Part shown: piece after piece, positions 29,835-49,178 of the stretch
How positions within the stretch are numbered: the stretch's first letter is position 1
Layout: each line of letters begins with the position of its first letter
The notes under the pieces: model-generated
Databases searched by the model: none
What the model was told of the DNA's origin: nothing
The model's input: the letters and a program-made list of their open reading frames with translations, nothing else
Made by a program: the position numbers and the translations under genes
Source of the DNA: Hylemonella gracilis ATCC 19624
GTDB taxonomy: Bacteria > Pseudomonadota > Gammaproteobacteria > Burkholderiales > Burkholderiaceae_C
DNA length: 64,000 bases
Reading direction: 5' to 3'
Assembly (NCBI RefSeq): GCF_000211835.1
Contig: NZ_AEGR01000052.1
Location: forward strand, 1 to 64,000

Positions 29835-29985
29835 TGTGCCGATAGGAAAATGATGGCCAGAAATTAAGCAATTGCTGTCCATTATCTGCGTCGATTCGGA
29901 CGCTTGTTCAGCTTGAGAAAAACAAATGCTGACCAAGCGTATTTTGTGCAAGCAAAAACTGGCCTAGAGATCGCTGGCCGCTTGA
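29835..29985. repeat. Left transposon end with repeated TnsB-like sites
   Basis: Beginning at the terminal TGTGCCG, motifs of A-rich bases followed by TGGCC or TGACC recur: TGATGGCCA near 29851, AAATGCTGACC near 29925, AAACTGGCC near 29957 and TCGCTGGCC near 29970. The right end has matching AAAGTGGCCA and AACGGCCA copies. Multiple such sites near each end are expected of transposase-binding arrays in Tn7-like elements. The exact site length is not resolved. Confidence 0.55.
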
Positions 29986-30205
29986 AGACTGGCGTCAGCG
30001 CAATTTTAGATATCGGGAATTTTTTAGTCGGGATTGCTCGCGCCTTCGTTGCGCAACAGCCGTCAATCCAGTAATCTGCCTCCATCCTCCGGAGCCGCCA
30101 GATGTACTTCACCGCATCAAGATCGCCTCGCCAGCTGCTTGCTGGCGTGATGCCTGCGCGTGCGTTGACGTCCTCCATCAAGCGCTCCGTCCTGGCCATG
30201 TCCAT
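29882..30205 (-). CDS. Doubtful small ORF in the left transposon end
   Basis: 107 codons. An AGGAG lies six bases before the ATG at 30205, and the first half (MDMARTERLMEDVNARAG) reads like protein. The second half (from about residue 65) lies within the repeated transposon end and is basic and low in recognisable structure. It could be a decayed cargo gene. The remainder of the gap from 29,660 to 30,392 holds only the terminator, the transposon end and a hairpin. Confidence 0.3.
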   Translation of the reverse strand: MDMARTERLMEDVNARAGITPASSWRGDLDAVKYIWRLRRMEADYWIDGCCATKARAIPTKKFPISKIALTPVFKRPAISRPVFACTKYAWSAFVFLKLNKRPNRRR

Positions 30206-30359
30206 GCGCTTCTCCTACGACTCACGGGTCTGCCGCGCGGTCAACAGCAAACGGTTCACACACCCTGTGCGAACCCGAACCTGCACAGCCGCCACACCAG
30301 CGAATTCAGTCCAGGAGTTCAGGCAAACGCGAAATACCTCTGACCACGCGTAGACGCCC

Positions 30360-30389
30360 GGGCTCCTGACTCACCAGTCAAAGGAGCCC
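30360..30389 (+). promoter_or_regulatory. Hairpin that buries the ribosome-binding site
   Basis: GGGCTCC (30360-30366) pairs with GGAGCCC (30383-30389), and TGACT (30367-30371) pairs with AGTCA (30376-30380), leaving a CACC loop and a two-base bulge. The AAGGAG ribosome-binding site of the next gene lies in the 3' arm, so translation could be gated by folding. Confidence 0.55.
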
Positions 30390-30392
30390 ATC

Positions 30393-30935
30393 GTGAACTC
30401 ACAACCCGCTTCCCTCAAAGAACTTCAGGCGCTTTATTCCTACCAGTTCAGCAACCCAGCTGATGTGGACGTTGCCAAGGGCTGGATGCCCATCTTTGCA
30501 AAGCTCTGCGCCGACGTGGACCAGACTCTGGGACAGGACAAACTGGGCTTTCACTGGAGTCAGATCAAGGAGAAGTTCGGATCTGCGCGGTTTTACTACC
30601 GCTACGGAAGCCACGAATCCGGCACTCGACTGGATGTCTGGACGCCCCAGGGCGTGCAGAGCCAGCAGATCTCGCCCAAACGCAGAGTCAGGACTGAAAA
30701 GGATCGCAGCTTCCAGGACATCAGCAGAGCCATCCTGCAGCTGACCGATGCAGCCCAAGTCGCGACCAAGAACGTTTGCCTGGCCTGCGGCGCGCCGGGT
30801 AGTCCGGACGTCGGTGAGGGCTACGTCCTGATGCTATGCCCCGAGCACCAGGCGAGGCGCCGCCAATTGGACAGCCAGGAAGGGCTGATTGACTGGGAAA
30901 CGCTGGAAGACGAGAACAACCAAGGGAGCGCGTGA
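30393..30935 (+). CDS. Small zinc-finger-like protein of unknown function
   Basis: 180 residues, GTG start three bases after a hairpin carrying the AAGGAG site. Visible features are KGWMPIFAKLCADVD, QIKEKFGSARFYYRYG and a C-terminal CLACG...LCPEH pattern that may bind zinc. The QIKEKFG-RFYY motif recalls small proteins found in phage and mobile elements, but I cannot name the family. It ends 2 bp before the metallophosphoesterase start, so the two were probably cotranscribed. Confidence 0.7.
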   Translation: MNSQPASLKELQALYSYQFSNPADVDVAKGWMPIFAKLCADVDQTLGQDKLGFHWSQIKEKFGSARFYYRYGSHESGTRLDVWTPQGVQSQQISPKRRVRTEKDRSFQDISRAILQLTDAAQVATKNVCLACGAPGSPDVGEGYVLMLCPEHQARRRQLDSQEGLIDWETLEDENNQGSA

Positions 30936-30937
30936 CC

Positions 30938-31751
30938 ATGACCAAGCTCCTGATCCTGAGTGATCTGCACAACGACATTCAGCCCATGCGTGCGGAGGTG
31001 GATGGCCGCCGGATTGATGTCGACGCCGATGTCGTGGTTCTCGCCGGCGACATCCATGAGGGAGTACAGGCGCCGATCTGGGCACGCCAGACGTTCCCCG
31101 ACAAGGAAATCATCCTCGTGGCCGGCAACCACGAGTTCTATGGCCGCTCCTGGAACAAGAACTTGCGTGAGCTGCGTCAGAAGTCAACCGAGCTGGGAAT
31201 CCATTTCCTGGAGGAAGACGCCGTGGAGTTGTTCGGGATCCGGTTCCTGGGGTGCACCTTGTGGACTGACTTCGCCTTGTACGGCACGGACCAGGCGCAA
31301 GACTTCATGGCGAAGGCCTACGACCGCATGAGCGACTACAAGCGGATCAAGCTGGACCGTCTGCCGGGTGAGAACTGGGAGTGGAAAGAACTGCGACGCC
31401 CCCAGCTGATTCCGCTGCTGGCGCAGCGTCGCCACGAGGCGTGGTGTGCGATGGCTGGATCGAGAGCTTGCTGCAAGCAACCCGGAAAAGACGGTGGTTG
31501 TGACGCACCACGCGCCGCATGAGCAATCGGTACCCGCAGAGTACAGGGGGCACCCACTCAGCCCTACCTACGCGTCAGACTTGTCGCACCTGCTCGGGCG
31601 CTCCAAGCTCTGGCTTCATGGGCACATTCACTTCAACGCGGACTACATGGTCGGTGCGACCCGCGTGATCTGCAATCCCCGTGGATATTCCTATGCGAAG
31701 CGGGAAGACATGAACAAAGAGTTCCGACCGGATCTGATCGTCGAGGTCTGA
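30938..31751 (+). pseudogene. Frameshifted metallophosphoesterase
   Basis: The first part (from ATG 30938) has calcineurin-type motifs SDLHND, AGDIHEG and AGNHEFY. The frame then runs into nonsense after about 31,440, while the continuation VVVTHHAPHE and HGHIHFN is in the next frame from about 31,446 to 31,751. Skipping one base near 31,439-31,446 restores one protein of about 270 residues with all metal-binding motifs. So the gene carries a single-base insertion, or the sequence has an error. A slippery heptamer is not evident. Confidence 0.85.
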
Positions 31752-31765
31752 GGCAAAGCCGCACG

Positions 31766-31939
31766 TCAAGCCATGCCGACCACACGACGCATGTTGACCC
31801 GCTCCATTGCCGACCCAAGGTAGTCGACCGAGCAGCCCTCAATAAGACTGGCGACCCACCAAGCACCGAGTTTGAGGGCACTCTCCAAGGAATCCAAAAG
31901 CTGATCTGCGGCGCGTCCGGATACTTGATATTGACCAGC
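31766..31939 (-). pseudogene. Headless C-terminal protein fragment
   Basis: Between two stops the minus strand reads 57 residues including ADQLLDSLESALKLGAWWVA and EGCSVDYLGSAMERVNMRRV, with protein-like composition ending in a TGA at 31766. There is no upstream ATG or GTG in frame; a TAG stands at 31940-31942. It looks like the tail of a gene whose front was lost at the junction with the next cargo gene. Function unknown. Confidence 0.4.
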
Positions 31940-31967
31940 CTACCTCTTTGGGTAGGAAATTTTCAGT

Positions 31968-32795
31968 TTAATGAAAAAATCTGACCAGCGCTAATGCGAC
32001 GACCAGTGGCAAACTCAATAGAAGTACGCAGCTGACAACACCAGGCAATAGCCTGTTCCAGACCCAGCGGATGGGGTGTGCTTCTATCAGCCTGCGCTCC
32101 GAGATTAGAGTTTCATTTGCAGACTTGCGCCGAGAAAGTTCTGCTTTGAGCAGATCACGTTCAGATAGCATTTCGCTGATGTATTCGCGAACATCACGCT
32201 CTCCGATAGATTCTTTCCAGTTTTCAACAGGAGTAAGTTCTTTAACTAACATTGGTTTTGATACGCCCTCGCGCTGTTCCGAATCTCGAAAATCGAACTT
32301 AATCCCAAATTGCGTGTAGAAAAGATTTCGCCTTTCCTTGTTATCTTCCCCAGCTTGACCGGCCACCAGCTTAATAGGTCGAACCCGAGCTTCAGGCCAT
32401 TGCTGAACCCACAGCACAATCTCATTCATCAGATAAGTGCCAATTCGTTGCCCTCTAAGCTCAATAGGATCAAAGAAAAGCGTATCGTTTGGAGAGGTCA
32501 GTGCAACCATGGGCATACCATCCACAGAGTTGCGCGAATAGCTTCCGAAGAATTTCCCTTTCCCACTCACGCGGTAGGAGTTCCTCGGTGTAATGCATTC
32601 ATAAGAAATTTGAACTGATGCAGTGAGTACGGAATCATCCGCCTCATTTTTCTGAAATTTCTCCTGCCGCTCAATCAAAACCCAAGCAATCGGATTTCTT
32701 TCAGGCTCTTTTCGGTCTCGGACTTCAAGCAAGTAGATGCGCGATTTGGTTGGTTTTCCATTTTTTATTTCAGGATCAAGAGAGGGCAGTGTCAT
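31968..32795 (-). CDS. GNAT-like protein with C-terminal membrane anchor
   Basis: 275 residues. Residues about 95-165 carry a GNAT-like pattern: LFFDPIELRGQRIGTYLMNE (acetyl-CoA loop R-G-x-R-I-G) and NKERRNLFYTQFGIKF (terminal NxxxxxFYxxxGF). A predicted coiled helix follows (ERDLLKAELSRRKSANETLI), then one transmembrane segment (LLPGVVSCVLLLSLPLVVALALV). Cytoplasmic catalysis tethered to the membrane is unusual. The gene is visibly AT-richer than the chromosome. Function and substrate unknown. Confidence 0.7.
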   Translation of the reverse strand: MTLPSLDPEIKNGKPTKSRIYLLEVRDRKEPERNPIAWVLIERQEKFQKNEADDSVLTASVQISYECITPRNSYRVSGKGKFFGSYSRNSVDGMPMVALTSPNDTLFFDPIELRGQRIGTYLMNEIVLWVQQWPEARVRPIKLVAGQAGEDNKERRNLFYTQFGIKFDFRDSEQREGVSKPMLVKELTPVENWKESIGERDVREYISEMLSERDLLKAELSRRKSANETLISERRLIEAHPIRWVWNRLLPGVVSCVLLLSLPLVVALALVRFFH

Positions 32796-33197
32796 TTTTC
32801 TAGAAGAGAGAACTCAAAATCATGAGGCCGCGAGATATCGCTAAGAACTCTGGACGATTCGAATGAACTGGAGGCTCAGGAACCATCCTGCGCAAGGATC
32901 CAGGTTCCTCCAAAACCTTTGGCACCGGAGGACGCGTAGCTGGGAGAAACGCACCAAAGCGGATGGCTACATAGGCGCGTGACCGAAGGGCGCGCAGACG
33001 ATAGCCGAGGTCCAGCTGCAGCATGCAGGCCGAGCTCTTTGGGCGCGTGTTCGAAGTCTCAATCTAAGGGCCGCTTCGGATGCCGGTACATGATATCAAG
33101 GAGGCTTTGCTCCGATAGCAAGCTAGACGAAGAAAAGAGGAGAAAACCAGGGAACAATGAGCCTTATAGAAGCCCAACGAGCTCTTGTCATTTCAAT
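32796..33197. other. 402-bp gap without a supported gene
   Basis: I see only short overlapping open frames without ribosome-binding sites or recognisable motifs. The stretch probably contains the promoter of the minus-strand GNAT-like gene. Confidence 0.5.
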
Positions 33198-33512
33198 TCA
33201 TGAGCGATCAATTCGTACTTGTATGCCATGTGCCGCAAGCACTGAAACTATCTCTTGATCATCGGTATTTTTGTCGTTTCCCATTGGGGATCGACCGATC
33301 TCAATTTGCGGACTCTCCCATATGACTAGAACACTGCCTTTTCTTTTCGATGGCACAAATTCCATTCGTTTATTGCGAAGGAATTTCAAAGCTTCTTCAA
33401 CGCTTTGAATTTCCTGCGTGAGTTCCGTTCTTAGATAGACGGGTGTTTGATTAATACCGTTTTTAGGATCACGAAGATATTGCCAATCCGAAATAGGTTG
33501 AGTGGGCTCCAT
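33198..33512 (-). CDS. Small hypothetical cargo protein
   Basis: 104 residues, starting MEPTQPISDWQYLRDPKNGI. The composition is protein-like, with a mixed alpha/beta pattern (LTQEIQSVEEALKFLRNKR, then SVLVIWESPQIEIGR). The gene is AT-rich compared with the chromosome, consistent with transfer. I do not recognise a family. A short GGAA-type site upstream is only weakly convincing. Confidence 0.5.
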   Translation of the reverse strand: MEPTQPISDWQYLRDPKNGINQTPVYLRTELTQEIQSVEEALKFLRNKRMEFVPSKRKGSVLVIWESPQIEIGRSPMGNDKNTDDQEIVSVLAAHGIQVRIDRS

Positions 33513-33653
33513 GTGATTGGTTTCCTATAAGGCTTTCTAAAAAAGTAGCAACTGGAAGGATAACGAGCTATAGGGGTCAGAGGTCTTGGATTTTCGACCA
33601 TCTCCATTGCAAGTTCCATGGCAGAGGGCGTTCTGCAGTGAAATTAAATTCAT

Positions 33654-34682
33654 CTACATGCGTAGGCTCTTTTCGACTTCGATTGCATGAATACTGGCTA
33701 AAGCGAAGCGACATCGCTCGGCTATGTAGTGGCAAGAATCGGAAGCGAGCTGCATCGCAATGCTCTGTGCTTCATCCCCAATTGAATCCAGGCGCCGAAT
33801 CAAATATTCGGCAGCAACTCGGCGGACAAGTGATGAGCGATCCGCTATGGCACGTTTCAGGGTCGTCAGGAACGGCTCAGGATGCTGAAGAGGTCGCTCC
33901 CCGAGCACCGGTTCTAACCGACCTTCGCACCATCTGACGTCCGTCCAAACCCACTTTCGTCCGACAAGCCAGGTCATTCGTCCGTCAAGAAGGAAACGAA
34001 AAGCTTTGGCTCGGACCGCAGGCTGAATTGCGGTGCTTGAGAATTCTCCCAACCATTCGTCGAAAACCTGAGTTCGTCCGGCCTGCGCAAGTATTTGGGC
34101 AACGGGTCCCGTCGTGGCTTGCTGAATTCGTGCCTTGAAGATCAAGGCAATTGACTTCATGCCGACCAAATCAGACAGAACCTGCCTGTCTGCATCTTTC
34201 ATGCGTCCCCAGGACATCCAATGCGGCAGGGCATGCCAAAGTGCTTCTGCGACATGCTCAGGGTCGGAGCGTTCTGCCATCCGAGGTAGATGCATTCGTG
34301 CCGCGGTGCGCACTTGAGGTACCCAGTCATTGAGTCGGCGCAGTGCGAGAGCGAAAAAGAAGCCATTGGGAGCCCCATCCGCTAGCGAGCGCATGGCGTC
34401 CTCGCGCTTGAAGCCATCACCATTGCAAAGATCCAGCCAGGATGCGGGGGCAGTCGGCTTTTTCCAGATCGTCCATCGACGGGCAGCGGTCCGTTGCTTG
34501 AAATCCCAAAGCTCGATTCGAAGCCTTCTCTCCCAGAGATCCAGGCTATTCAGTGACAACTGGGATGTTTCGGCTGCAAGCGAAGCCATTGCCTCTGGTC
34601 TCCCACGACCGCTTGCATTTGCATTGAGAAACTGAGAAGCCGCAGTGAGTACAGCCGCTTCATTCTGTAAGTGGTGAGGCAT
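33654..34682 (-). CDS. HEAT-repeat-like protein
   Basis: 342 residues, nearly all alpha-helical. Repeated helix pairs with Arg/Asp patterns occur, such as RLNDWVPQVRTAARMHLPRM and IADRSSLVRRVAAEYLIRRL, typical of HEAT/armadillo repeats that bind proteins or nucleic acids. No catalytic motif is visible. It is the cargo gene nearest the transposition genes and is divergent from them. A role in transposition or in defence cannot be told apart. Confidence 0.6.
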   Translation of the reverse strand: MPHHLQNEAAVLTAASQFLNANASGRGRPEAMASLAAETSQLSLNSLDLWERRLRIELWDFKQRTAARRWTIWKKPTAPASWLDLCNGDGFKREDAMRSLADGAPNGFFFALALRRLNDWVPQVRTAARMHLPRMAERSDPEHVAEALWHALPHWMSWGRMKDADRQVLSDLVGMKSIALIFKARIQQATTGPVAQILAQAGRTQVFDEWLGEFSSTAIQPAVRAKAFRFLLDGRMTWLVGRKWVWTDVRWCEGRLEPVLGERPLQHPEPFLTTLKRAIADRSSLVRRVAAEYLIRRLDSIGDEAQSIAMQLASDSCHYIAERCRFALASIHAIEVEKSLRM

Positions 34683-35319: not shown

Positions 35320-35364
35320 CAACTCCTGATCTGTGCATTTTTGTACCCGTCCGAGTGGGTAGGG

Positions 35365-38199
35365 ATGGCTGCGCCCTCCGCCTCAGACAAGCACAGGTTT
35401 TCCACTGCAGGTGGAGAGGGGTTGTCATGGTCGATCGATGCAAGTCTGCATCGGGTCCTTTGTCTACATGTCCCGGACAAACGCGGCTCCGGAGGCGCTG
35501 TGCTTGATAAAGCCCAACTGATCGATCACTTTGATCGATTGGGTATTCCTGCTAAAGGGCGGGAGCTTGTCCTGCGCGCCAGAAGGGAGGCCCCTGTACG
35601 CGACGTGCAATCTCACGGAGGCAACGTCATCACCGTGCTGGCTAGTCGGAAGATGGCTAGCGAGATTCGCTGTGAAAGCCGTCATGTGGAGTATCCCGCG
35701 GCTGTAGACCACGAATACAACCCTGCGGTGCTTGAATACTACGCACAGCCGTGCAATCTACATCTGGAGCTGTTTGACCCTGCTGCGAATGCGACCAAGA
35801 AAATACACCACTGTCCTGATTTCTTGGTCATTCGAGATGACGCTGTCGTACTGGAAGAATGGAAGTCTGAGGAGAAGCTGAATCGTCTGGCGGAGAAGTA
35901 TCCCTATCGCTATAACAAAGGGAATGATGGATTCTGGTGCTCCCCGCAGATAGAACAGCAGCTAGGTGAGCTTGGCATCAGGTACCGAATCTGCAGTGGC
36001 GACAGCATTCCACGCGTTCGGGTCGAAAACTATCTCTTCCTGGCAGATTTTTTACACCCTGCCGCACCACTGTGCCCTGATCCAATCCTCAAGCGCCTCA
36101 ATGAGATCTTAGGTGAGCACGGCGCAATCTACCTGGATGAGTTATTCCGTGATCCGCACAACCTTGTTCCAGACGAGGTGTTCAAGGCAATCGCTGAGAG
36201 GCAGGTCGTAGCCAATCTGGATGTAGAGCCCTTGTCGTCGCTCGGGCGGTGTCGTCTTTTCCGCGATACCACGCTACGTGAATTTTTGGCTGCCCAGGCG
36301 CAGCCTGGCCGAGTTCCTGGGCAAGAAAAATTTGTACTTGATGTTGCTGCTGGATCCAGCTTCCAGTACGAAGGTCAGGAGCTGACGATTTCCCTCGTGA
36401 GCGAAAAAGAGGTCGTCTTCAGTGGGAAGGATGGAAACACTCACACGATTTCCAAGGATTGGCTCCTCGAAGCAATCGATCATGGGAAAGTCACGCCGCT
36501 GAAATCGGCAGCAGCGATCAGCTTGGACATCAGTTGCTACACCCAAGCGCAGCTCGAAACAGCGCTACGACGCCAGTCACTTCTGCGTAGCGACGTCGAT
36601 CATGGAGTGAGTGGTCGGACCTTGCGGCGCTGGGCCGCTCGACAGGCAGCGGCTGTTGCCAATGGCGCCAATGATGTTCTTGCGCTAGTTCCTAAAACTT
36701 CGAAGCGGGGTAATCGGACGCCTCGCCTGAATGAATCTCAAGAGACTGCTCTGCAACGTGTCTACGAGACCAATTGGCGCAGCAACAAAGCGCCGAACTA
36801 CAAAGCTTGCTACAGGTACCTGCAGGTCGCGTGCGACAACGAAAACGTCAAGTGCCCGTCATACCCTACCTTGATTAAGTACATCAAGAGCCGACAAACC
36901 AATCAGGACGTACGAATCCGCCACGGCAAACGGATGGCTTATCAGCTGGGACAGTTTGTCGATGTTCTTTATGCCGATACGCCGGTTCACGGAAGTCGGC
37001 CATTTCAGTATGTGCACATCGACCACACGCAGCTTGACATTGAACTGATCTCCAGTCGAACGGGAAAACCTTTGGGTAGACCGTGGTTGTCGATTGCGGT
37101 GGACGCATGGTCGCGTCGGATCGTTGGAATCTACTTGACATTCGACTCACCCTCATACGCCTCTGTGATGATGGTCGTCCGTGACATGGTCAGGAGATTT
37201 GAGCGACTACCCGAAACCATTGTTGTCGATAACGGGAAAGATTTTGCCTCTGAGGCGTTTGAGTCGTTTCTCATGGTCCTGGGAGTGAATCTGAGATTCC
37301 GTCCCGCAGGCCGTCCTCGTCATGGCTCAGTGATGGAGCGCTTGTTCGGGCGCTTGCACACGGAGTACGTTCATAACCTAGCGGGAAATACCAAGGATAC
37401 AAAGAACGTACGGATGACTACAGGCAAACATTTGCCAGTGAATTTTGCTGAATGGACGCTAAAGGCCCTGTACTTCGGAATCGAACACTGGGCAACTGAT
37501 TTCTACGATCAGGAGCGTCATGTCTCCCTAGATATGAGCCCGCGAGAAGCGTACCAAAAGGGTCTGGTGGAAGCGGGCGAGAGAGCACATCGTCGTGTGC
37601 TCTTCAACCTAGATTTCAAGATTGCAACCTGCCCACCAGTGGAGTTTGGGGGGCAGCGTCAGGTCAATCGACAGACTGGAGTGAAGGTCAAAAACGAGTT
37701 TTATTGGAATCCCGAATTCAGCGATTCGAGAGTCGCAGGTAAACGATTTCCTGTGAGATATGACCCTTGGGATGCCGTATCAGTCTATGTTCGTATCAAG
37801 GAACGTTGGGTGCACGCGCAGTGTCGCAAGCTCTACGGCCTTGGGCAACTCACAACACTCGAGCTGGAGGTTATCTCCGCAGAGCACTCTAAAAAGAGCG
37901 GCAATCCTGGTGACGGCGAGCGTAGCCGCCAGAGGCTACATGAGTTCATGCAGATTTTCACACCAAGCGGTGCTTTGGCCCTGGAGCTGGATCGAGAGAC
38001 TGAAAACAAGACTCTCTACAACCAACTGAATCTCAGCTACATCAATCCTGCTGCTCAGTTGTCCAGGGAACATCTTCTCGAAGATGTGTCTACGAAATCT
38101 ACTCATGAAGCGGGCAGTGGGGCAGAGCCCCATCAACGATCCCCGCAGTCTTCTGGGATGCAGTCCGACGACCCCCTACCTGATTTCGACATGTTTTGA
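35365..38199 (+). CDS. tnsAB: TnsA-TnsB fusion transposase
   Basis: 944 residues from ATG 35365 (TTG 35341 would add eight). Residues about 120-215 are TnsA-like: LEYYAQP, HHCPDFLVI, then LEEWKSEEKL, matching the E...D...(E/Q)xK nuclease site that cuts the 5' transposon ends. After a linker there is a helix-turn-helix region and an rve/DDE core: D553 in HIDHTQLD, D622 in VVDNGKDF and E658 in GSVMERLFGR, with the classic D(35)E spacing. A Mu-type C-terminal barrel and an acidic tail (DDPLPDFDMF) follow. The tail may contact TnsC. Confidence 0.9.
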   Translation: MAAPSASDKHRFSTAGGEGLSWSIDASLHRVLCLHVPDKRGSGGAVLDKAQLIDHFDRLGIPAKGRELVLRARREAPVRDVQSHGGNVITVLASRKMASEIRCESRHVEYPAAVDHEYNPAVLEYYAQPCNLHLELFDPAANATKKIHHCPDFLVIRDDAVVLEEWKSEEKLNRLAEKYPYRYNKGNDGFWCSPQIEQQLGELGIRYRICSGDSIPRVRVENYLFLADFLHPAAPLCPDPILKRLNEILGEHGAIYLDELFRDPHNLVPDEVFKAIAERQVVANLDVEPLSSLGRCRLFRDTTLREFLAAQAQPGRVPGQEKFVLDVAAGSSFQYEGQELTISLVSEKEVVFSGKDGNTHTISKDWLLEAIDHGKVTPLKSAAAISLDISCYTQAQLETALRRQSLLRSDVDHGVSGRTLRRWAARQAAAVANGANDVLALVPKTSKRGNRTPRLNESQETALQRVYETNWRSNKAPNYKACYRYLQVACDNENVKCPSYPTLIKYIKSRQTNQDVRIRHGKRMAYQLGQFVDVLYADTPVHGSRPFQYVHIDHTQLDIELISSRTGKPLGRPWLSIAVDAWSRRIVGIYLTFDSPSYASVMMVVRDMVRRFERLPETIVVDNGKDFASEAFESFLMVLGVNLRFRPAGRPRHGSVMERLFGRLHTEYVHNLAGNTKDTKNVRMTTGKHLPVNFAEWTLKALYFGIEHWATDFYDQERHVSLDMSPREAYQKGLVEAGERAHRRVLFNLDFKIATCPPVEFGGQRQVNRQTGVKVKNEFYWNPEFSDSRVAGKRFPVRYDPWDAVSVYVRIKERWVHAQCRKLYGLGQLTTLELEVISAEHSKKSGNPGDGERSRQRLHEFMQIFTPSGALALELDRETENKTLYNQLNLSYINPAAQLSREHLLEDVSTKSTHEAGSGAEPHQRSPQSSGMQSDDPLPDFDMF

Positions 38200-38211: not shown

Positions 38212-39255
38212 ATGAACGCTACAAAAAATCTATCAAACGGTATGACTGTAGATACCACCTCTGCAGACCTCTTCAATGGCATGCGCATTAAACACACCAG
38301 GATTGCTCGGGTGATGGATGACCTGAAGACCCTGATCTACCCGACAAGCCAGGACAGCATCTTGCTCGTCTGTGGGCCGACTGGCGTGGGCAAGACGACG
38401 CTTGCGCGTCACGTGGTGGATGCGGGCGTGCAAGACGCCACGCGTGAGATGCAGCGCGACGCCGGTCTGATTCCTGCTGTGTATGTACAAGCACCCTCTT
38501 CCGGGGAGAGTCAATTCTCTTGGAAGCTTTTCTACCAACGCATCCTCGCCCAATTGGATGGTGGTTTGCCTTTGCCAAGACACGACTTTGGTGTGAGTGC
38601 TCATACCGGTCGATTGGTCCGGCCATTTGGTCCGTCAGCAAACTCTCTGGCGGCATTGAGAACCGCGGTGGAACGTGCGCTGCGCGAACGCGGGACTCAG
38701 TTTCTTGTGATTGACGAGGCGGCGCACCTAATCCGTCAGACGCGTCGAAACCACCTGGAGATTCAGCTCGACACGTTGAAGTCACTGGCGAATGAAAGTG
38801 GAACCCAGATGGTGCTTGTTGGCTCGTACGATCTCTACGCGCTGATGTCCTTGTCAGGGCAATTAGCACGCCGTACACATGTCCTGCACTTCGAACGGTA
38901 CCGTCAGGATGTACCCGAAGATATCCGTGCCTTCCAGGCTTGTGTGCAGAAATTCCAAGATGCATTGCCTGGCCTCTGGGGGCAGCGGTTGTTAACGCAC
39001 GCCGAAGCTCTGCAAGACAACACGCTCGGCTGCATCGGGACACTCAGTTCGGTTCTAACACGTGCGGCCAAGTTAGCGCAATCCCGTGGTGGTTGGAGCG
39101 TGGACGTATTACGCGAAGCGCTATTGACTGAGGCGCAGCGGACCAAGATTCTCGAGGAAATCCTCGATGGGGAGGCCGCAATTAACCCTGGACTCACCCG
39201 CACCATGCCCAAAGCCTCGACTGGTCGACGCCCTGAGAACAGGAAAGCTGCATGA
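38212..39255 (+). CDS. tnsC: TnsC/TniB-type AAA+ transposition ATPase
   Basis: 347 residues. Walker A is GPTGVGKTT (from G55) and Walker B is FLVIDEAAHL (D168, E169), followed by sensor-like QMVLVGSYDLYALMSLSGQL. TnsC assembles on DNA, links the TniQ target selector to the transposase and gives target immunity. GAAGG precedes the ATG. It follows tnsAB by 12 bp and overlaps tniQ by 4 bp. Confidence 0.92.
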   Translation: MNATKNLSNGMTVDTTSADLFNGMRIKHTRIARVMDDLKTLIYPTSQDSILLVCGPTGVGKTTLARHVVDAGVQDATREMQRDAGLIPAVYVQAPSSGESQFSWKLFYQRILAQLDGGLPLPRHDFGVSAHTGRLVRPFGPSANSLAALRTAVERALRERGTQFLVIDEAAHLIRQTRRNHLEIQLDTLKSLANESGTQMVLVGSYDLYALMSLSGQLARRTHVLHFERYRQDVPEDIRAFQACVQKFQDALPGLWGQRLLTHAEALQDNTLGCIGTLSSVLTRAAKLAQSRGGWSVDVLREALLTEAQRTKILEEILDGEAAINPGLTRTMPKASTGRRPENRKAA

Positions 39256-41221: not shown

Positions 41222-43234
41222 ATGCTTACGAATACCAACCCGAAATTTAGCCTACCACGTGTCAAGCGCGTGCAGTTGCACGCTTTCTCCCTCTACAGCC
41301 TTGAACCAAACATCGGCCTGCCGCTGAGCAACGGCGTCACGTGCTTGGCGGGCGCCAATGGCATCGGCAAGTCCACCTTCCTCAGCACGATCAACTTTGC
41401 ATTGACGGGTGTTGTCCCCGAGCCCACCCGCGAGTTCAAGTCGGCGAGCGCCTACTTGCAGAAGGCGCGCGAGTACACCAGCACCTTCTTCGACGGCCGC
41501 ATCAACGAGTTGGACCGCGACGCCGCGGCGATCAGCATCGAATTCACGATCAAGGATCGTCACTACGCCTTGAAGCGCTCGCTGTTTGAAATCGACACCA
41601 TCGCTTCGCTGCGCATCACGCAGGCGGAAGTCGTGATCTTTGAATCCACGGATTCGACAACTGGACACAACGATGAGCGGTACCGTCAGGACGTCAGCGA
41701 GGCCATCGGGCTGAACTCCTTTGAGCAATTCGTGCTGTTGCAGCACTTCCTGTTCACGTTCGACGAGAGCCGCCACCTGATCTTTTGGGATCAGCAAGTG
41801 TCGTCGGCACTGTTGTACATCTGCTTCGGCGGCGACCCGCAGGACGCTGCCAAGGCAGACCATCTCAACCGTGAGATGGAGAAGGCAGGCTCTCGTGGCC
41901 GCAACCTCCAGTACCAAGCCAGCACCCTGGACAAGCGGATCACGCAGCTGGAGTCTTCGGTCGAAACTGACGACGAAGCCACAGCCGATGTCGAAACCGC
42001 GACCGAGCACTACCGAAGCCTGAATGAGGCGCTGACCAACAACATCGAAGCAGCGGAACGAGTCGAGGCCGACGCAAGCGACGCGGAGCTGAAGGTCATG
42101 GAGGCCAGCTCTGCCGTGGTCTCGGTGCGCGGCGCTTACACGCGCGCATTCGATGAGTTCATGAGCGGCGCCACGTCGGCGGACAAGCATCCCTTCATCG
42201 CATCGACTATCTCGGAGTGCAAGTGTCCGATCTGCGCGGCTGAAGGGCCGTCGATTGCTCAGGCGATCCGCTCAAAAATCAACGCCGACGTATGTCCGCT
42301 TTGTACTTCTGCGCTGCAGCCTCCCGCTAGCATGAACTCTGAACGCACCCAGGCTCTGGCCGAACTGGACCGGTCGCTGGCCGAACGCAAGCGCGTGTTG
42401 GATGCCGCCGTGGCAACAAAGGCGCGGCTGAACGCCGAATTGGCCATCAGGCGTGATCAAGTAAGAGCGGCCCAGGAGGCGATCAACAGTTTCGAGAGCC
42501 AGAACCGCGACGCGCTGGCCCGCATTCGCGGCAAGCTTGCGCTGCTGGAAGGACCGCTTGCCGCTACGCTCAACGCACTGAAGACCGCACGCAATGAGCA
42601 ACTGACCCAGCGGCAGGAGGCCTACGCCGAGCGCGACCGCCATCGCGATGACCTGAAGGTCCTGCAACGCAGCCTTGAGCGAAAGTACTTGGAAGCTGAG
42701 TCGACCTTTGTGCCGATGTTCAAGCGCCTGGCCAAGCGGTTCCTGGGCATTGATCTGGACATCACACTGGCATCCTCTGCGCCCACAGGCCTGCACCTAG
42801 AGATCGAGCTGCGTGGCAGCTCTCGGCGTATGCAGACTCAGCTGTCGGAGAGCCAGCGGTTCTTCATCGACATCGCGCTACGCATGGCGCTGGCCCAGTA
42901 CGTTTCAGACCCGGGCTCTTTGGCCACGTTGTTCATCGACACCCCCGAGGGATCCCTGGACATTGCCTACGAAGACCGTGCTGGCCAGATGTTTGCCGAG
43001 TTCGTCAGTAGCGGTCATCCGATGATCATGACCGCCAACATCAACAGCTCTAAGCTGCTGACCTCACTGGCGCAAGCCTGCGGCGGCGAATTGATGCAGA
43101 TCGTCCAGATGACCAATTGGACCGAGTTGTCTGATGTTCAGCGCGGCGCGGAAGGTTTGTTCAGGACAGCCTTTGACGAGATCGGACAGGCACTGCTGTT
43201 TGGCCGCGCGGACCCGCCGGCAGCGGGAGTTTGA
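41222..43234 (+). CDS. SMC/Rad50-like ABC ATPase of a three-component system
   Basis: 670 residues. Walker A is GANGIGKST (44-52), the ABC signature is LSESQR (from 541) and Walker B is LFIDTPEGSLD (D573, E576). Long coiled coils occupy about 220-320 and 375-500. At the apex two CxxC motifs occur (C335/C338 and C358/C361), which would bind zinc within one chain rather than forming a single Rad50 hook. Such ATPases sense DNA ends or foreign DNA in Lamassu and related ABC-three-component conflict systems. The next two genes follow with 1-bp and overlapping junctions. Confidence 0.85.
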   Translation: MLTNTNPKFSLPRVKRVQLHAFSLYSLEPNIGLPLSNGVTCLAGANGIGKSTFLSTINFALTGVVPEPTREFKSASAYLQKAREYTSTFFDGRINELDRDAAAISIEFTIKDRHYALKRSLFEIDTIASLRITQAEVVIFESTDSTTGHNDERYRQDVSEAIGLNSFEQFVLLQHFLFTFDESRHLIFWDQQVSSALLYICFGGDPQDAAKADHLNREMEKAGSRGRNLQYQASTLDKRITQLESSVETDDEATADVETATEHYRSLNEALTNNIEAAERVEADASDAELKVMEASSAVVSVRGAYTRAFDEFMSGATSADKHPFIASTISECKCPICAAEGPSIAQAIRSKINADVCPLCTSALQPPASMNSERTQALAELDRSLAERKRVLDAAVATKARLNAELAIRRDQVRAAQEAINSFESQNRDALARIRGKLALLEGPLAATLNALKTARNEQLTQRQEAYAERDRHRDDLKVLQRSLERKYLEAESTFVPMFKRLAKRFLGIDLDITLASSAPTGLHLEIELRGSSRRMQTQLSESQRFFIDIALRMALAQYVSDPGSLATLFIDTPEGSLDIAYEDRAGQMFAEFVSSGHPMIMTANINSSKLLTSLAQACGGELMQIVQMTNWTELSDVQRGAEGLFRTAFDEIGQALLFGRADPPAAGV

Positions 43235-43235
43235 T

Positions 43236-43853
43236 GTGGAGCCCGAAGCCTTCTTCGACACCCTCCGAATCGCTGACGTGCTTGATAAGCCGCTGGGCGG
43301 CGTTAGCCGCATGGAGATTCAGCGCATCTCGTTCCTCTCTTGCCTGCTGTCGATCTACCAGGCTAAGCCCGTGTCCGACTGGGGCTACAGGTTCGCTAAT
43401 ACTGGCGCCGGGACGCCCTTCAGCGACCAACTCAATGAGGCCGTAGGCCATTTACTCAACCAGGCATTACTGACCGAGTCAGGGAGCCGTCTGCGCATCA
43501 CGGTGAGCGGCCGTGTAATGCTTGCCATGCTGAGTAAATTCGACAGCATGGCCGAACGGCCGCCTTGCTTGGAAGCAGCCTGCGCCAGCATGCTCGCAGT
43601 GCCTCGGTCCACAATGTCCGATGGCCTGGACCAAGAGCCCACGATTGCTGCCAGCCACCTGAGATCTAGCGCCACGATGCTTCTGGAAGAGCCGCACCTA
43701 AGCATGCTGCACGAACACTTCAGCGTCTTGGCTCAGGTCATTCCACCCAGTCAAGGTGATCTGCTTAGTCCTTCGGTGCTGTGGCTCTCGTACATGGCGC
43801 AGAGCAAGTGGTCTGAGCAGGAGCGCAGCGAGCAAGGGGAGGCCCACGCGTGA
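43236..43853 (+). CDS. Probable middle component of an ABC-three-component system
   Basis: 205 residues from GTG 43236 with GGGAG seven bases upstream, one base after the ATPase stop. Segments such as RIADVLDKPLGGVSRMEIQR, FLSCLLSIYQ and AVGHLLNQALLTESGSRLRITVSG look like winged-helix adaptor folds. By position and size it fits the 'middle component' that couples an SMC-like ATPase to an effector, as LmuC does in Lamassu. Sequence similarity alone does not prove this. It overlaps the nuclease gene by 4 bp. Confidence 0.6.
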   Translation: MEPEAFFDTLRIADVLDKPLGGVSRMEIQRISFLSCLLSIYQAKPVSDWGYRFANTGAGTPFSDQLNEAVGHLLNQALLTESGSRLRITVSGRVMLAMLSKFDSMAERPPCLEAACASMLAVPRSTMSDGLDQEPTIAASHLRSSATMLLEEPHLSMLHEHFSVLAQVIPPSQGDLLSPSVLWLSYMAQSKWSEQERSEQGEAHA

Positions 43854-44917
43854 CGAAGATCGACCTCGACAAACTGCGCGCGCTGAACGAGACTCTCTAC
43901 ACAACCGCGGCACGTAACGCCTTTGGCGATAACGGGCTGCAGGTACTCGCGCGCCTGGTGAGCAGCGTCGTTCAAATTTATCGCCGCTTGGACCCGGGTT
44001 CTCGGACCGCGCCTTTAGTGCTTTTTGCCGACGTGAGCGCGTCACCCACCAGCCTGAGCGGAATGCCTCAGCTAGTGCACCGCATCTCGAACCTGGGCAA
44101 CGAGATCGACGGCGCATGCATGGCCCGTGTCAATGGCGATACGTCACTGCAGGTGTATCCCTTTGACGCCTCGGTGTTGATGGCGATGTCGCGAACCGCA
44201 GTGGTGTACCGACACCATCAAGGTGTCGAAAGTTTCGTTATTAACGGCAACGAATACCAGTTGATCAACCCGATCACCGGGTACGGCAGCGTCTTCTGCC
44301 GACCGACGTTCGGAACCCTCGCCGACGCATTGGACGAATACCGCACGAAATCAGCCGCGCACTCGGGATGCGAGGTACTAAAAACCGCCTGGCATGAGCC
44401 CTCACGCTGGTTCCTCAAAACCAAGCCAGAACAGATCATGCGCAAGTCACTGGTGCAGTACCTCAGCAACGTGCTGGATGACGCCGAGGTGCGACCGGAG
44501 CAGAACGTTGATGAGTCCCATCCTGTCGATATCAAGGTCAGCTTTGCCCTCACCGATCTGCGGGCCATCATCGAGATCAAGTGGCTCGGCAACTCCGTTG
44601 ATGAGACGGGCAAGATGACCACGCACTACACGCAGGCGCGGGCGCAGGCAGGCGCACAACAGTTAGCTGAGTACCTGGATTCATCCCATGAGTGGGGGTC
44701 AGGTGTGAAGACCCGCGGCTATCTGGTGGTGTTTGATGCGCGGCGCAAGGGCCTGTCAGAGGGCATCAGGACGCTGAGCCACAGTGACGCGATGCACTTC
44801 AAGGACGAACACATTACTTATTCGCCGGATCACAGTGCAATCCGGAACGACTTCGCGCCACCCGTGCGCATGTACATGTTCCCGAAGCAGGCAACGACCT
44901 CGGCGCCCTCACCTTGA
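43850..44917 (+). CDS. PD-(D/E)XK nuclease-like effector
   Basis: 355 residues from GTG 43850, with AAGGGGAGG just upstream. The C-terminal part has a restriction-endonuclease core: D227 in HPVDIKV, then E242-x-K244 in IIEIKWLG, with QLAEYL as a possible downstream QxxxY motif. The N-terminal 200 residues are unassigned and may form the target-binding or regulatory domain. It is translationally coupled to the middle component and its 3' end overlaps the convergent methyltransferase gene by 9 bp. Confidence 0.75.
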   Translation: MTKIDLDKLRALNETLYTTAARNAFGDNGLQVLARLVSSVVQIYRRLDPGSRTAPLVLFADVSASPTSLSGMPQLVHRISNLGNEIDGACMARVNGDTSLQVYPFDASVLMAMSRTAVVYRHHQGVESFVINGNEYQLINPITGYGSVFCRPTFGTLADALDEYRTKSAAHSGCEVLKTAWHEPSRWFLKTKPEQIMRKSLVQYLSNVLDDAEVRPEQNVDESHPVDIKVSFALTDLRAIIEIKWLGNSVDETGKMTTHYTQARAQAGAQQLAEYLDSSHEWGSGVKTRGYLVVFDARRKGLSEGIRTLSHSDAMHFKDEHITYSPDHSAIRNDFAPPVRMYMFPKQATTSAPSP

Positions 44918-46249
44918 GAGTTCGACGATGCACTCTCTGAGGTGATGGCTGCCGCCTTGCTGCGCGCTGGCGCGCATCTTGCGCACCTCGAAAACCTGGG
45001 TATTGGTGAAACCGATGGCGCGGGCCAGCTCCAACAGTATCGTCGGCACGTCGATCAGCACGCCGGCATACCTGGAGTCGCCGACCACCATCAACAGCTT
45101 CCCGCGAGCCGTCAGCAGCCGGTGTGACTCAAGCAGGACGCGCTCAAGATCCCGGAAGTAGCCCAACACCATTTCTGGGATTCGTGCGTCCCACAGCTCA
45201 TCTGCCTTGGCCTGCAGCTCCTTAAAAGCAATTTCCAACGTCGTGCTAGCGTTGGTAGGCTTGTGGGCCGTACGGTAGATCTGAACGTGTGAGTGGACCG
45301 TGGAGCGACGGAGCACCATGTTGTCGTTCGAGGAACCGAGGTAGCCCAAGGCCCATAGCTCGACGTTATAGATGTCGGTGTAGTCGAACGAGTTCGGGTA
45401 GGGCGGCGAGAAGACGATCAGGTCTGCGAGCGTTTTGATATTTTGTAGCTCAATACGGGAGTCACCGTGGATGACGTTGACGCTTGCAGCCGGTCGGCCT
45501 TCGAAGCGATGCACGTCTTCGAACGCAGTATTGAACTGCGTTTGAAACCGGGAGTCCAGCAACTCGGGCGTGGCCTGGGTCTCCTGCCAGTTGCGGCGGT
45601 ACCGCCGTCCTTTACCGTTGATGTAGACGTTGCTGCATTCGACGAGCACTGCCCCGAGAGCGACCCGGAAGAAAAGCTGCACGTCTGCATCTTGTACTTT
45701 ACGAATGCACTTCAGGTACTGAGACAGCCGCAGGGCAAACGCCTCGGAGAAGATCCACCGGTGCTTGTCCTTGGATTCGACGAACGTGGGTGGCAGGTGC
45801 TCAAGCAACTCTAGATCTGCCTTAGTGTGCGACAAGCTGCGGCGAAAGGCCTGAGCCGCCCCGATCAGCTTTTTCGCGCTGATGTTGGTGGTCTTGGCGC
45901 GGATGACATCAGCGAGGAAAGGGTTGACCTCGATGGTCGTCGCAGGAATACCCAGCAGTTGACACGTGATGGCCGTCGTTCCCGACCCCCCAAAGGGGTC
46001 GATCACGTGGTCAGGCAGAAAACCTAGTGTCTCAACCGCAGTGGTCACGAACGACGGCGAGAACGCTTCCTTGAAGTGGAACCAGCGTTGGAACGCTATG
46101 CGTTGCGCCGATTGATTGGTGGTTGCTGGTGGCGCATTCTTGGCTTCAGGAGTACTCAGCCAGCCGGCCGTCTCGTCGACTCTGAATGCAGGGGCGGCAG
46201 GGAAGTGTTCCTGCAGCGTCAGGAGGTAGCGGTCGGGTGGATTACGCAT
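44909..46249 (-). CDS. DNA methyltransferase (N4-cytosine/N6-adenine type)
   Basis: 446 residues. The SAM-binding motif I is DPFGGSGTT (84-92) and the catalytic motif IV is SPPY (281-284), in the order I then IV with about 190 residues between, where the target-recognition part may lie. SPPY is common in N4-cytosine enzymes but does not settle the base. I start at ATG 46249 (MRNPPDRYLL). It is convergent with the nuclease gene, the arrangement expected of a protective methylase. Confidence 0.87.
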   Translation of the reverse strand: MRNPPDRYLLTLQEHFPAAPAFRVDETAGWLSTPEAKNAPPATTNQSAQRIAFQRWFHFKEAFSPSFVTTAVETLGFLPDHVIDPFGGSGTTAITCQLLGIPATTIEVNPFLADVIRAKTTNISAKKLIGAAQAFRRSLSHTKADLELLEHLPPTFVESKDKHRWIFSEAFALRLSQYLKCIRKVQDADVQLFFRVALGAVLVECSNVYINGKGRRYRRNWQETQATPELLDSRFQTQFNTAFEDVHRFEGRPAASVNVIHGDSRIELQNIKTLADLIVFSPPYPNSFDYTDIYNVELWALGYLGSSNDNMVLRRSTVHSHVQIYRTAHKPTNASTTLEIAFKELQAKADELWDARIPEMVLGYFRDLERVLLESHRLLTARGKLLMVVGDSRYAGVLIDVPTILLELARAIGFTNTQVFEVRKMRASAQQGGSHHLRECIVELSR

Positions 46250-46283
46250 GCGGCAGCGACTATAAACTGAATGCCATTTTGAA

Positions 46284-46718
46284 ATGAAAACGGATCTCAA
46301 TGTTGGTGATCAGGTAAAAATCCTTTTCTCTTCCCCATATGTGCTGGCGGCAAACAGTCGTGTTTGGGCTGCTCTGGGCGTCGGATTCTTCTTGCGCAAG
46401 CGCAATTTAGCCTACGCCAACTCCGCAGCGCTGAGCGAGGTGCTGCGCGCGATCACCTTCTCGGATATCAAGATGCTGGTCTGCCTCGGGCAGACGTCGG
46501 TTAGAGGGAACGTTCTTCCAGCCTGCATTGTTTGCCGACGGTTTCATCCCGTCGTTTTGACGGCCGATCCGGACATAGGTGTGAAGCGCTCAACATCCTT
46601 GGAGATGATGCGAGTTCATACGATTTCAACCAACAGCGGCTACCGCTGCACAGCCGTCGTCCAACACGAGAGGTCCGGCTCAGGCTGGTTGCTGACTTTT
46701 AGATTCCGCGCCAAGTGA
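46284..46718 (+). CDS. Uncertain ORF divergent from the methyltransferase
   Basis: 144 codons starting MKTDLNVGDQVKILF, 34 bp from the methyltransferase start, so the two would share a very short promoter region. The first 60 residues read like protein, but the later part (CLGQTSVRGNVLPACIVCRR) does not suggest a family and no good ribosome-binding site is visible. It may be a small regulator, a decayed gene or chance. Confidence 0.3.
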   Translation: MKTDLNVGDQVKILFSSPYVLAANSRVWAALGVGFFLRKRNLAYANSAALSEVLRAITFSDIKMLVCLGQTSVRGNVLPACIVCRRFHPVVLTADPDIGVKRSTSLEMMRVHTISTNSGYRCTAVVQHERSGSGWLLTFRFRAK

Positions 46719-47171
46719 CCGCCGCGCGAAACCAGCCATTCACGTTCGACGAGCGCGTCGGTCCGCTGTACATCCGGAACCGGTCAACCATCGAGGTCTC
46801 GTCGCCAAATTGCGCGAGTGGCCGCTTGTGTCAGCCGATGAGTCGGCGCTCTGCGCCCATTGCCGTCTGCCAGTAGGAATACAAGCCGTCCTTCGTCAAC
46901 GTTTCTGGACCCCCATGAGCGGACTTTCACCTTGCCCTACCTTTGACAAAATGCACGGCGAATTTGCGCTTGCTTGAAACATCACGCTGTCACCGTCTGA
47001 TTGCTCACAGCGGCAAGCGTTCTGCAACGTCGTAAACTGATTGATGGGTATGCCTCGATCGCAAGCGCCACAGCCTACACTTCTCCACCCTTGCCCACTT
47101 GACCAACTCCTCGCGGCCTTTCTCTTTTAGTGCAGTGACGACCAAGCAAAGACTGATTGCACTGTTGGCAA
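46719..47171. other. 453-bp gap before the HNH gene
   Basis: No open frame with protein-like content was found on either strand. It probably contains remnants of older cargo and the promoter of the HNH gene. Confidence 0.4.
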
Positions 47172-48710
47172 ATGCCATCTACAAATTTGATTCCAAGTAT
47201 GCAAAGCAGCAAGAAGAAGTCGGATTCTCAAGGCGAAGACCGAGGGGCGCGCGAAAATTTTAGTTCGGCTACGCGCGCGAGTATCGCCAAGGCAGCGGGC
47301 GAAAAATGCTCCTTTCGTGGATGCTTGGCGCCGACAAGCACCGTTGCAGAGAAGTCGAATGGGAAGGCCGGCTCCACCGATATTGCGACGGCATCCCACA
47401 TTTATGCCGCGGCACCCGGTGGCCCCCGGCCGGCGCCGCCTGGCATGTCGCCCGAACAGATCAGGGACCAGTCCAACGGCATCTGGACGTGTGGGGTCTG
47501 CGCGGGCCGCATAGACAGAAGGGAGCCGGTCCCAAGCGCCGAAGACTTGATCGAGATGAAGCGCGTGCGTGAGACCGCGCAGAGGATGGCCGTGATGGAT
47601 CCTCAACTAAGTTTCGCGTCCAGCTACATCTCGCCGCGCGAATGGGATGAGGTCTTCTGGCAGCACTTGCCTGATCTGGACCCTGAGTCCATCCGCACCA
47701 AGCTTCTTGACCTTGCGGCAAAGTCCATTCTCCGCATCACAACAGGAGGGCCTAACCAGTCGTTACCGCATTTCCCGATCACGCCCTTGACCAGGGACAT
47801 CCGAGCCGGCTTCCATCGCCCGGCGAACGAGAGCGGGAACGAAGCCTTCATCGCTGGCCAAGCGAGCAAAGCACCTCCTATTTCGCTGCCGCATGTCGTC
47901 GCAGACGCTTCGGCAAAGCGAAGAGCGACGCAAATCTTTCGGGCCTGGGCACTGCGATACCCGGGCGGCGCCCAAAACGGGCTGATCCTCCACGTGAACG
48001 TACAGATTGGCGCGCGTAATCCAAAGACTGGCGAGGTCTCTTCCGCCTTCATCCAGGTCCTGGCCACAGGACATATCCAGAGCATGCATGCGGGCGAAAC
48101 TGGCGAGCAGCTCACGTTAAAGCTATGGGGGACTACGGACCGCATCAACGATCTTGAATGGAAGTTGGATGTTTCTCTTGACCAAGGAAAGATTGAGTCC
48201 ACGAGCACACTGCGCCGAATTCCATGGAGACTGTTTGATTCTTTCAAGAACGGCTTCCCCGATTTGCTCGAGGAGCTCGAACGCTACGAGTCCGTAGTTC
48301 GTCTGATCATGCAAGGCTGGGAGCCTGTCGGGTACGTCGATGTGAAAGCAGATTCCGACTCCTATGGAGACCAGATGCATCCGGATCCCTTTGACATCGA
48401 CCTACAGGTCGACCAGGCAACGCTTTCTGAGTCCCTACAGCGATGCCAAAAAATCCGCCTGGCGCTTGATCTTGAGCGGGTTTGGGGAGGCCGGATGTTC
48501 AGTTGGCGCGATGCCTACTTCGAAAAAAATCTGACACCTGAACTCATCTTGTGCGCGTCCAATGAACTGAAGGACCGGCATGTGCTGCGTCCTCGAGAAG
48601 GGGTGACCTCATTGACGGCCCTGATCCCGGAGCATGGTCGCGAAATCCACTTCAAAGTGAGTCCATTGGCGATTTACTTCGAGTACGCGCGTTCGTCTCG
48701 ACGGGCGTGA
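47172..48710 (+). CDS. HNH-endonuclease-like protein with long C-terminal domain
   Basis: 512 residues from ATG 47172 (ATG 47199 is possible). Residues about 30-135 form an HNH-like zinc module: ATRASIAKAAGEKCSFRGC (C46, C51), ASHIYAAAPGGPR (H76) and SNGIWTCGVCAGRID (N102, C107, C110). This module is common in defence-associated proteins. The 350-residue C-terminal part is unrecognised; it has a beta-rich middle and ends SPLAIYFEYARSSRRA. It is the last gene before the right transposon end and stands alone, so it could be a single-gene defence protein. Confidence 0.7.
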   Translation: MPSTNLIPSMQSSKKKSDSQGEDRGARENFSSATRASIAKAAGEKCSFRGCLAPTSTVAEKSNGKAGSTDIATASHIYAAAPGGPRPAPPGMSPEQIRDQSNGIWTCGVCAGRIDRREPVPSAEDLIEMKRVRETAQRMAVMDPQLSFASSYISPREWDEVFWQHLPDLDPESIRTKLLDLAAKSILRITTGGPNQSLPHFPITPLTRDIRAGFHRPANESGNEAFIAGQASKAPPISLPHVVADASAKRRATQIFRAWALRYPGGAQNGLILHVNVQIGARNPKTGEVSSAFIQVLATGHIQSMHAGETGEQLTLKLWGTTDRINDLEWKLDVSLDQGKIESTSTLRRIPWRLFDSFKNGFPDLLEELERYESVVRLIMQGWEPVGYVDVKADSDSYGDQMHPDPFDIDLQVDQATLSESLQRCQKIRLALDLERVWGGRMFSWRDAYFEKNLTPELILCASNELKDRHVLRPREGVTSLTALIPEHGREIHFKVSPLAIYFEYARSSRRA

Positions 48711-49178
48711 ATCCAAGGTTGCTAAGGATAGGGCTTGGGTCAGCAACGAGCTGCACGGTTCTGCTAGGTCTAATCGCTTGATGACCACTCAAAAGCGAAT
48801 CTCGGCGTAGGGCGCGCAGTGCCCATTCGCCCGAGCTGACCGCGGACCTTGAAGCGCCAGATTCTCAAGATGGTCGAGCGACGATGGCCGGGATGACCGG
48901 AGCGCTCTGCAGTGCGGCCGTTCGAACCTCCCGTGCTACGGAAACCGCAGCGACCGCAGTCTGGCCCAGACCACACGTTCGCTTTCGAGGCGGCAACGGC
49001 TCCAACCGCTGCTGACCCGTCCGCTGCCGCTGACCTCGATCATTCAGCGGCTCCGACTGTCACCGGAACTACAGCCTAAGTCAGGAGTGCTACCTTGGTC
49101 GAACAGAAATGCAAAATATGGCCGTTCGGCGAATAAAGCATAAGCTGTCCAAGTGGCCACTTTATGCTTAACGGCACA
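48711..49178. repeat. Right transposon end region
   Basis: No supported gene. Reading inward from 49178 on the minus strand the terminus is TGTGCCG, followed by GCATAAAGTGGCCACTT and an inverted partner CTTATGCTTTA (AAGCATAA/TTATGCTT at 49136-49143 and 49162-49169). A perfect 12-bp palindrome AAGTGGCCACTT spans 49151-49162. A second GGCCA copy is near 49120. These resemble the left-end repeats and are candidate transposase-binding sites. Confidence 0.6.

Follow-up and report, generated by a model that had tools for sequence, protein, structure and literature searches.

The window analysed here is a stretch of 64,000 nucleotides from the genome of Hylemonella gracilis ATCC 19624 (contig NZ_AEGR01000052.1, positions 1 to 64,000). 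Its positions 29835-49178 hold a Tn7-like element of ~19 kb with a fused TnsAB transposase, next to a tRNA-Ser(UGA) gene found on the reverse strand at 49208-49297. The three core genes are open and are read from the forward strand. The tnsAB fusion (35341-38199) is a single open reading frame (ORF) of 952 residues that matches the Pfam families Tn7_TnsA-like_N, rve and Mu-transpos_C. Its TnsB part has D561, D630 and E666, as expected from a TnsB-type DDE transposase, while E117, D160 and K175 of the TnsA part presumably have the role of their counterparts in Tn7 TnsA. An in-frame GTG at 35500 (residue 54) lies near the onset of the matches of most relatives and may be the true start. The tnsC gene (38212-39255) codes for an AAA+ ATPase (TniB/AAA) with a Walker A motif at residue 55. 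The third gene, tniQ (39252-40586), encodes a 444-residue protein of the TnsD type with a TniQ domain, three CxxC pairs and a helical C-terminal half with a helix-turn-helix (HTH). A sequence-only reading of this DNA had described a tnsAB, a tnsC and a TniQ with a C-terminal HTH; Pfam recovers all three proteins but the HTH_3 match, at 22.6 bits, stays slightly below the 23-bit cut-off. The same reading saw no CRISPR (clustered regularly interspaced short palindromic repeats) machinery, in line with our scan of the element ORFs, where no Cas family is among the Pfam and PADLOC matches listed. A search for a CRISPR array found no direct repeats of at least 20 bp within 120 bp, and the host genome has one match to the window TniQ. 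By these results the element does not qualify as a CRISPR-associated transposon (CAST), which would carry inside it Cas effectors, a CRISPR array and a TniQ serving them.

The left end (29835-29881, forward) has a TGTGCCG tip and TnsB-like sites; the right end (49104-49178, forward) has three TnsB-like sites and the tip CGGCACA. On recount the two ends agree at 18 of 25 positions, as claimed earlier, the highest value among the 24 pairings of TGTGCCG in the window (eight forward by three reverse; the runner-up has 15). The inverted repeat taken alone is weak evidence, and it is the comparison with relatives that settles the boundaries. The relatives were collected by scanning genome contigs with a TnsAB alignment (251 confirmed, 80 of them kept); an earlier scan using the single TnsAB as query confirmed no relative. 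Close betaproteobacterial loci that have an end beside tniQ show a near-constant right end after the tniQ stop codon, with three TnsB-like sites and closing in TTATGCTTAACGNCACA or a near variant. A right-end profile was built from 13 relatives and a left-end profile from four, and both were scored over the 64 kb on the two strands. The right-end profile has its maximum exactly at 49178 (92.2 bits; next 0.6) and the left-end profile exactly at 29835 (20.2 bits; next 11.7). With up to three mismatches allowed, the TnsB-site motif of the right end has a single occurrence in the window. In the host genome the end pattern has one mismatch-free occurrence and four more at three mismatches.

GTCA abuts both ends (29831-29834 and 49179-49182), as the sequence-only reading had it. 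It is either a 4-bp target-site duplication or, as we infer, a 5-bp GTCAG whose left copy lost its G. Perfect 5-bp duplications accompanied by both ends were found in four of the 12 relatives examined with extended flanks, in elements of Novimethylophilus (21.9 kb, GTTAT), Oxalicibacterium (25.5 kb, CGTGC), Herminiimonas (27.3 kb, TGCTT) and an uncultured betaproteobacterium (28.9 kb, CAGAT). These independent elements bear out the description of a complete Tn7-like element. The left flank of the window was found in four of 59 relatives, the host itself aside. In one of them, of the same genus (G003), both flanks are at the same place and 8.4 kb lie between them: a shortened copy with both ends, whose tnsAB is cut after 312 residues and which has no tnsC or tniQ match. 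Its duplication, TCAGT, is a perfect 5-bp one set one base off the GTCA of the window. Beyond the truncated tnsAB, at 8.1-10.1 kb of this locus (L038), ORFs resemble by eye the beginning of an IS21-type transposase and part of a helicase.

The copies in the window and in G003 could be two insertions at one attachment site, which we consider somewhat probable although not firmly so, or descend from one old insertion in a common ancestor, which is possible but on the doubtful side. A single ancestral insertion would agree with the leftmost part of the element (30.0-31.75 kb), where the copies are 89-98% identical, a level near that of the chromosomal flanks (86-92% for the left flank, and 82-94% for the right flank apart from a single segment at 72%). 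Against it stand the 98-100% identity of the core (32.0-36.26 kb) and the junctions, which differ by two bases at the left end and by one at the right end.

The right end is 29 bp from the 3′ end of the tRNA-Ser(UGA) gene (spacer 49179-49207), in agreement with the earlier count. The loci with a tniQ match downstream and at least 700 bp beyond it (57 of 80) were scanned with ARAGORN. A tRNA or transfer-messenger RNA (tmRNA) gene lies within 1 kb of tniQ in 25 of them, convergent in 24 and not so in L104 (tRNA-SeC). Enough sequence for examination was present in 22 of the closest 24 loci (L093-L116), and such a gene is found in 15 of these 22. Nineteen elements whose right end is less than 60 bp from the RNA gene, any smaller gap being admitted, were tabulated; the table leaves out L104 (opposite orientation) and L112 (tniQ cut short), and for L038 and L097 the start of the tRNA was placed manually. 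In all 19 the right end stops 27-31 bp short of the 3′ end of the convergent gene (29 bp in seven, 28 in six, 30 in four, 27 and 31 in one each). The targets are tRNA-Ser(UGA) in five (the window and G003 included), tRNA-Met in five (including L097 and Caballeronia), tmRNA in five (one from an Alicyclobacillus), tRNA-Gly(CCC) in two and an untyped Ralstonia tRNA in two. The 29 nucleotides at the tRNA 3′ end are identical in the five Ser-type targets, although tRNA genes are conserved in any case. The spacers show no clear conservation across relatives while their length is nearly constant; because the spacer sequence is not conserved, the RNA gene is the anchor. Among distant relatives, no tRNA was found within the stretches scanned of G222 and G302, and the nearest one in G422 is a tRNA-Arg ~6 kb past tniQ.

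Positions 2-433 of the TniQ profile match the TnsD chain in PDB entries 8v32/9bw1 (E 3e-151), whose letters in the alignment agree, where both are displayed, with the TniQ of a Peltigera cyanobiont locus (L142). An AlphaFold model of the window TniQ (predicted local distance difference test score 86.7) has the 8v32 TnsD as first PDB match (E 4.8e-24, template modelling score 0.61). Likewise, the TnsAB profile matches 9bw1 over positions 12-852 of 904 (E 1.8e-191). Structural work on TnsABCD reports a TnsD that recognises and bends the attachment-site DNA and recruits TnsABC (PMC12585508); 8v32 and 9bw1 are probably the entries of that study. That the single TniQ of the element would alone pick its site is well supported, by its homology over the full length to a solved TnsD and by the spacing of 27-31 bp from the tRNA and tmRNA 3′ ends.

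We propose that TniQ, probably by means of its C-terminal half, would bind the CCA, acceptor and T-arm sequence at the tRNA-Ser(UGA) 3′ end and recruit the TnsC ATPase. TnsC would then bring in TnsAB bound at the left and right ends, and TnsAB would excise the element and join it ~29 bp past the tRNA 3′ end, with the right end on the tRNA side and a short target duplication; the insertion would leave the tRNA gene intact. The identification of 29835-49178 as a complete TnsAB-fusion transposon, taken jointly with this homing mechanism, is in our view highly probable. The ends, the duplications of the relatives, the spacing, the gene content and the full-length homology are shown by the analysis, and we infer that TniQ would bind DNA, that assembly would follow the order given and that the element would move by cut-and-paste and may be active today.

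Several observations weigh against this identification and mechanism. The duplication has 4 bp in the window and 5 bp in the relatives. Within the stretches examined, the left end was not found in eight of the 12 relatives (Rhodocyclaceae L115, Trinickia L103 and L100, Deefgea L101, Ralstonia L108 and L099, Thiobacillus G202 and Caballeronia), which may have longer cargo, a contig end or decayed ends. ARAGORN detected no tRNA or tmRNA gene within 1 kb of tniQ in 32 of the 57 loci, nor in seven of the 22 close ones, one of which (L097) has a degenerate tRNA-Met by eye. In the close relative L104 (at 15238-15348) the right end lies 5′ of a tRNA-SeC gene whose orientation is the opposite one; it is the one such exception among the close loci with an RNA gene within 1 kb. 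In Herminiimonas L095 a second end tip is 16 bp from the tRNA, the outer tip, at 30 bp, being the one used in the table. No alignable empty site was found. The sequence-only reading proposed that relatives lacking the island would join its flanks directly, which was borne out in part: a same-genus genome (G007) lacks the element beside the same tRNA, at 120 bp from a flanking gene shared with the window, but its junction bases cannot be aligned. In Oxalicibacterium the left flank matched only the query genome itself among the 40 genomes around it. Finally, the targets cluster on the TniQ, TnsAB and TnsC trees alike, so that TniQ is not singled out as the determinant.

This last point could mean that the site is determined by TnsC, by TnsAB or by host factors present at tRNA genes and that TniQ is a mere adaptor, which we regard as improbable. 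With L104 (tRNA-SeC) counted as its own group, the trees require six target changes for TniQ and seven each for TnsC and TnsAB, nearly as few, against a minimum of five (none of 200 shuffles was as low on any of them; L119, a tmRNA-type locus with a broken tnsAB, was left out of the TnsAB tree and of those of the TniQ halves). The TnsC proteins nearest to that of the window also come from Ser targeters, as do the nearest TniQ proteins. The nearest TnsAB, however, comes from Gly targeters (61% identity), and a homologous TnsD is reported to recognise the attachment site in the solved complexes (PMC12585508). When the two halves of TniQ are treated separately, the C-terminal half sorts the targets with five changes, the minimum, and the N-terminal half with six; on the N-terminal tree the window pairs with a tmRNA targeter (support 85/95). 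This is suggestive, not proof, that the C-terminal half reads the target. Approximately unbiased (AU) tests did not reject the Ser targeters as one clade on TniQ (p 0.34), TnsC (0.31) or TnsAB (0.26). Grouping the window with the Gly targeters was not rejected on TniQ (0.14) or TnsAB (0.35) and was rejected on TnsC (p 0.037).

The element has the features of Tn7-like elements (a TnsB-type transposase, a TnsC/TniB ATPase and a TniQ/TnsD protein, TGT/ACA tips, several TnsB sites, and a duplication that is of 5 bp in G003 and in the four relatives and of 4 bp in the window) as well as those of the TnsAB-fusion subfamily related to type I-B2 and I-D CASTs, namely the TnsA and TnsB parts in one ORF and a TnsD-type selector with insertion ~30 bp downstream of a tRNA gene. 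PmcCAST (Tn7744, a type I-B2 CAST of the Peltigera membranacea cyanobiont 210A, source of the TnsD and TnsAB chains of 8v32 and 9bw1) has homologous TnsAB, TnsC and TnsD proteins, only 26-35% identical to those of the window. Its locus (L142) reads tnsAB-tnsC-tnsD followed by a convergent tRNA-Val, in place of tRNA-Ser(UGA), and a review gives its TnsD a tRNA-gene target (PMC11406308). It differs by a Cascade, described in the literature, and by a second TniQ homologue upstream of tnsAB, whereas the window element has one TniQ and no Cas match among those listed. A second tniQ homologue upstream of tnsAB is also seen in L131, L155 and L171 (Alicyclobacillus, Clostridia and Bacillus relatives), the first of which lies 27 bp behind a tmRNA gene.

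The type I-D CAST CyCAST/McCAST shares the TnsAB fusion but has a CRISPR I-D part and a cyanobacterial host; CyCAST is stated to home 30-33 nt downstream of tRNA-Leu with TnsAB, TnsC and TnsD (PMC10293859). Prototypic Tn7 resembles the window element in the TnsA and TnsB parts of its transposase, its TnsC, its TnsD-type selector and its insertion shortly behind a conserved gene, but has TnsA and TnsB as separate proteins, a TnsE pathway and glmS as target (PMC10293859, PMC11406308). According to the same review, members of the TnsAB-fused family reach different tRNA genes by means of TnsD proteins, and targeting without CRISPR occurs in related elements (PMC11406308); the cyanobacterial members reported there from Hsieh and Peters 2022 combine the TnsAB fusion with TnsD/TniQ proteins for various tRNA genes, some of them with non-CRISPR targeting, whereas the clade of the window is betaproteobacterial and targets tRNA-Ser, tRNA-Met, tRNA-Gly and tmRNA genes. 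Insertion of Tn7-like elements downstream of tRNAs is also mentioned in PMC8649781. Homing to tRNA genes by TnsAB/TnsD elements is already published for cyanobacteria, which lowers the novelty of the finding, and the window element is a CRISPR-free betaproteobacterial member of this known family. Among the matches listed in the literature searched, as far as their text was available, no description of the betaproteobacterial clade or of tRNA-Ser or tmRNA targets was found.

What the window adds is the extension of tRNA homing by TnsAB and TnsD from cyanobacterial CASTs to a betaproteobacterial lineage, in an element where no CRISPR part was found. The relatives behind other tRNA genes or tmRNA at a similar distance form a natural series for the reading of the landing site: a graded set of close selectors with known targets (four Ser, two Gly, five Met and several tmRNA) in a near-constant geometry. 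With these selectors and the solved TnsD-DNA structure, the assignment of tRNA genes to the TniQ residues that read them can be put to a direct test, a step towards guide-free site-specific insertion tools and an understanding of how such elements switch targets. A broader proposal, which could equally prove right or wrong, is that this CRISPR-free TnsAB clade has, in the C-terminal half of its TniQ, a reader of tRNA-like 3′ ends that is able to evolve and that moved among tRNA-Ser, tRNA-Gly, tRNA-Met, another tRNA and, on more than one occasion, tmRNA while the spacing of ~29 bp was kept. If true, TniQ would offer a natural protein code by which insertion behind tRNA-like genes could be reprogrammed without a guide.

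Some loci show further particularities around the RNA gene. In Herminiimonas fonticola (L177/L178) the sequence that flanks the element on the left resembles, by eye, a right end that is older and worn, 14 bp of which follow the new right end and keep 30 bp to the tRNA-Ser; by eye this looks like repeated use of one site. A similar end remnant is present in L104. In L112 (14.0-15.1 kb) a tRNA-Gly(CCC) gene is apparently interrupted, with part of it at the transposon end and a complete copy 1 kb further. Caballeronia sp. M1242 (L078, plasmid NZ_CP071130.1) has at ~13.7-32.6 kb two sets of tnsAB-tnsC-tniQ, which follow each other in tandem beside a single tRNA-Met gene. Where the window protein has D160 and K175, the proximal TnsAB has H and V, and its TnsA part may be dead. 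Distant TnsAB elements of G223 (L089/L090) and G186 (L091), whose TniQ is 28% identical, adjoin tRNA-Ser(TGA) and have repeated GGCAACTTTATG-type sites nearby.

The position of tniQ within the element raises the notion of a tns module that forms a smaller element of its own, either lodged inside a tRNA-associated genomic island or with no relation to it, the repeats at 29835 and 49178 being those of the island or due to chance: tRNA genes also host integrase-type islands, and those named close relatives whose right end was tabulated have tniQ ~180-355 bp from it, whereas 8.6 kb of cargo intervene here (4.9 kb in Caballeronia). It is very improbable, and as to the ends already refuted, since the relatives with the same tnsAB share a right-end sequence that the window has only at 49178, their left-end profile matches 29835, and no site-specific recombinase family is listed for the 14 ORFs scanned with Pfam. 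Other ends within 34.7-41.2 kb are ruled out and the outer ones correct, because the profiles and the TnsB-site motif of the relatives match only there.

The genes on both sides of the tns module within the transposon are plausibly a defence load, judging from their family matches. On the left, forward ORFs code for a 180-residue protein (30393-30935; no Pfam match), common to the G003 copy, and a metallophosphatase (30932-31751), which is split into two frames here and is a single 272-residue ORF in G003. They are followed by three reverse-strand ORFs of 275 residues (31968-32795; an acetyltransferase match below cut-off), 104 residues (33198-33512) and 342 residues (33654-34682), the latter two having no Pfam or PADLOC match. 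Between tniQ and the right end lie, on the forward strand, an SMC-like ATPase gene (41222-43234) whose best PADLOC match is LmuB and two ORFs of 239 (43134-43853) and 355 residues (43850-44917), neither of which has a match above cut-off. A DNA methylase (N6_N4_Mtase; PADLOC MTase_II) is encoded on the reverse strand (44909-46300), and the last cargo ORF (47157-48710, forward, 517 residues) has an N-terminus that matches PDC-M68A and endonuclease effectors of PADLOC.

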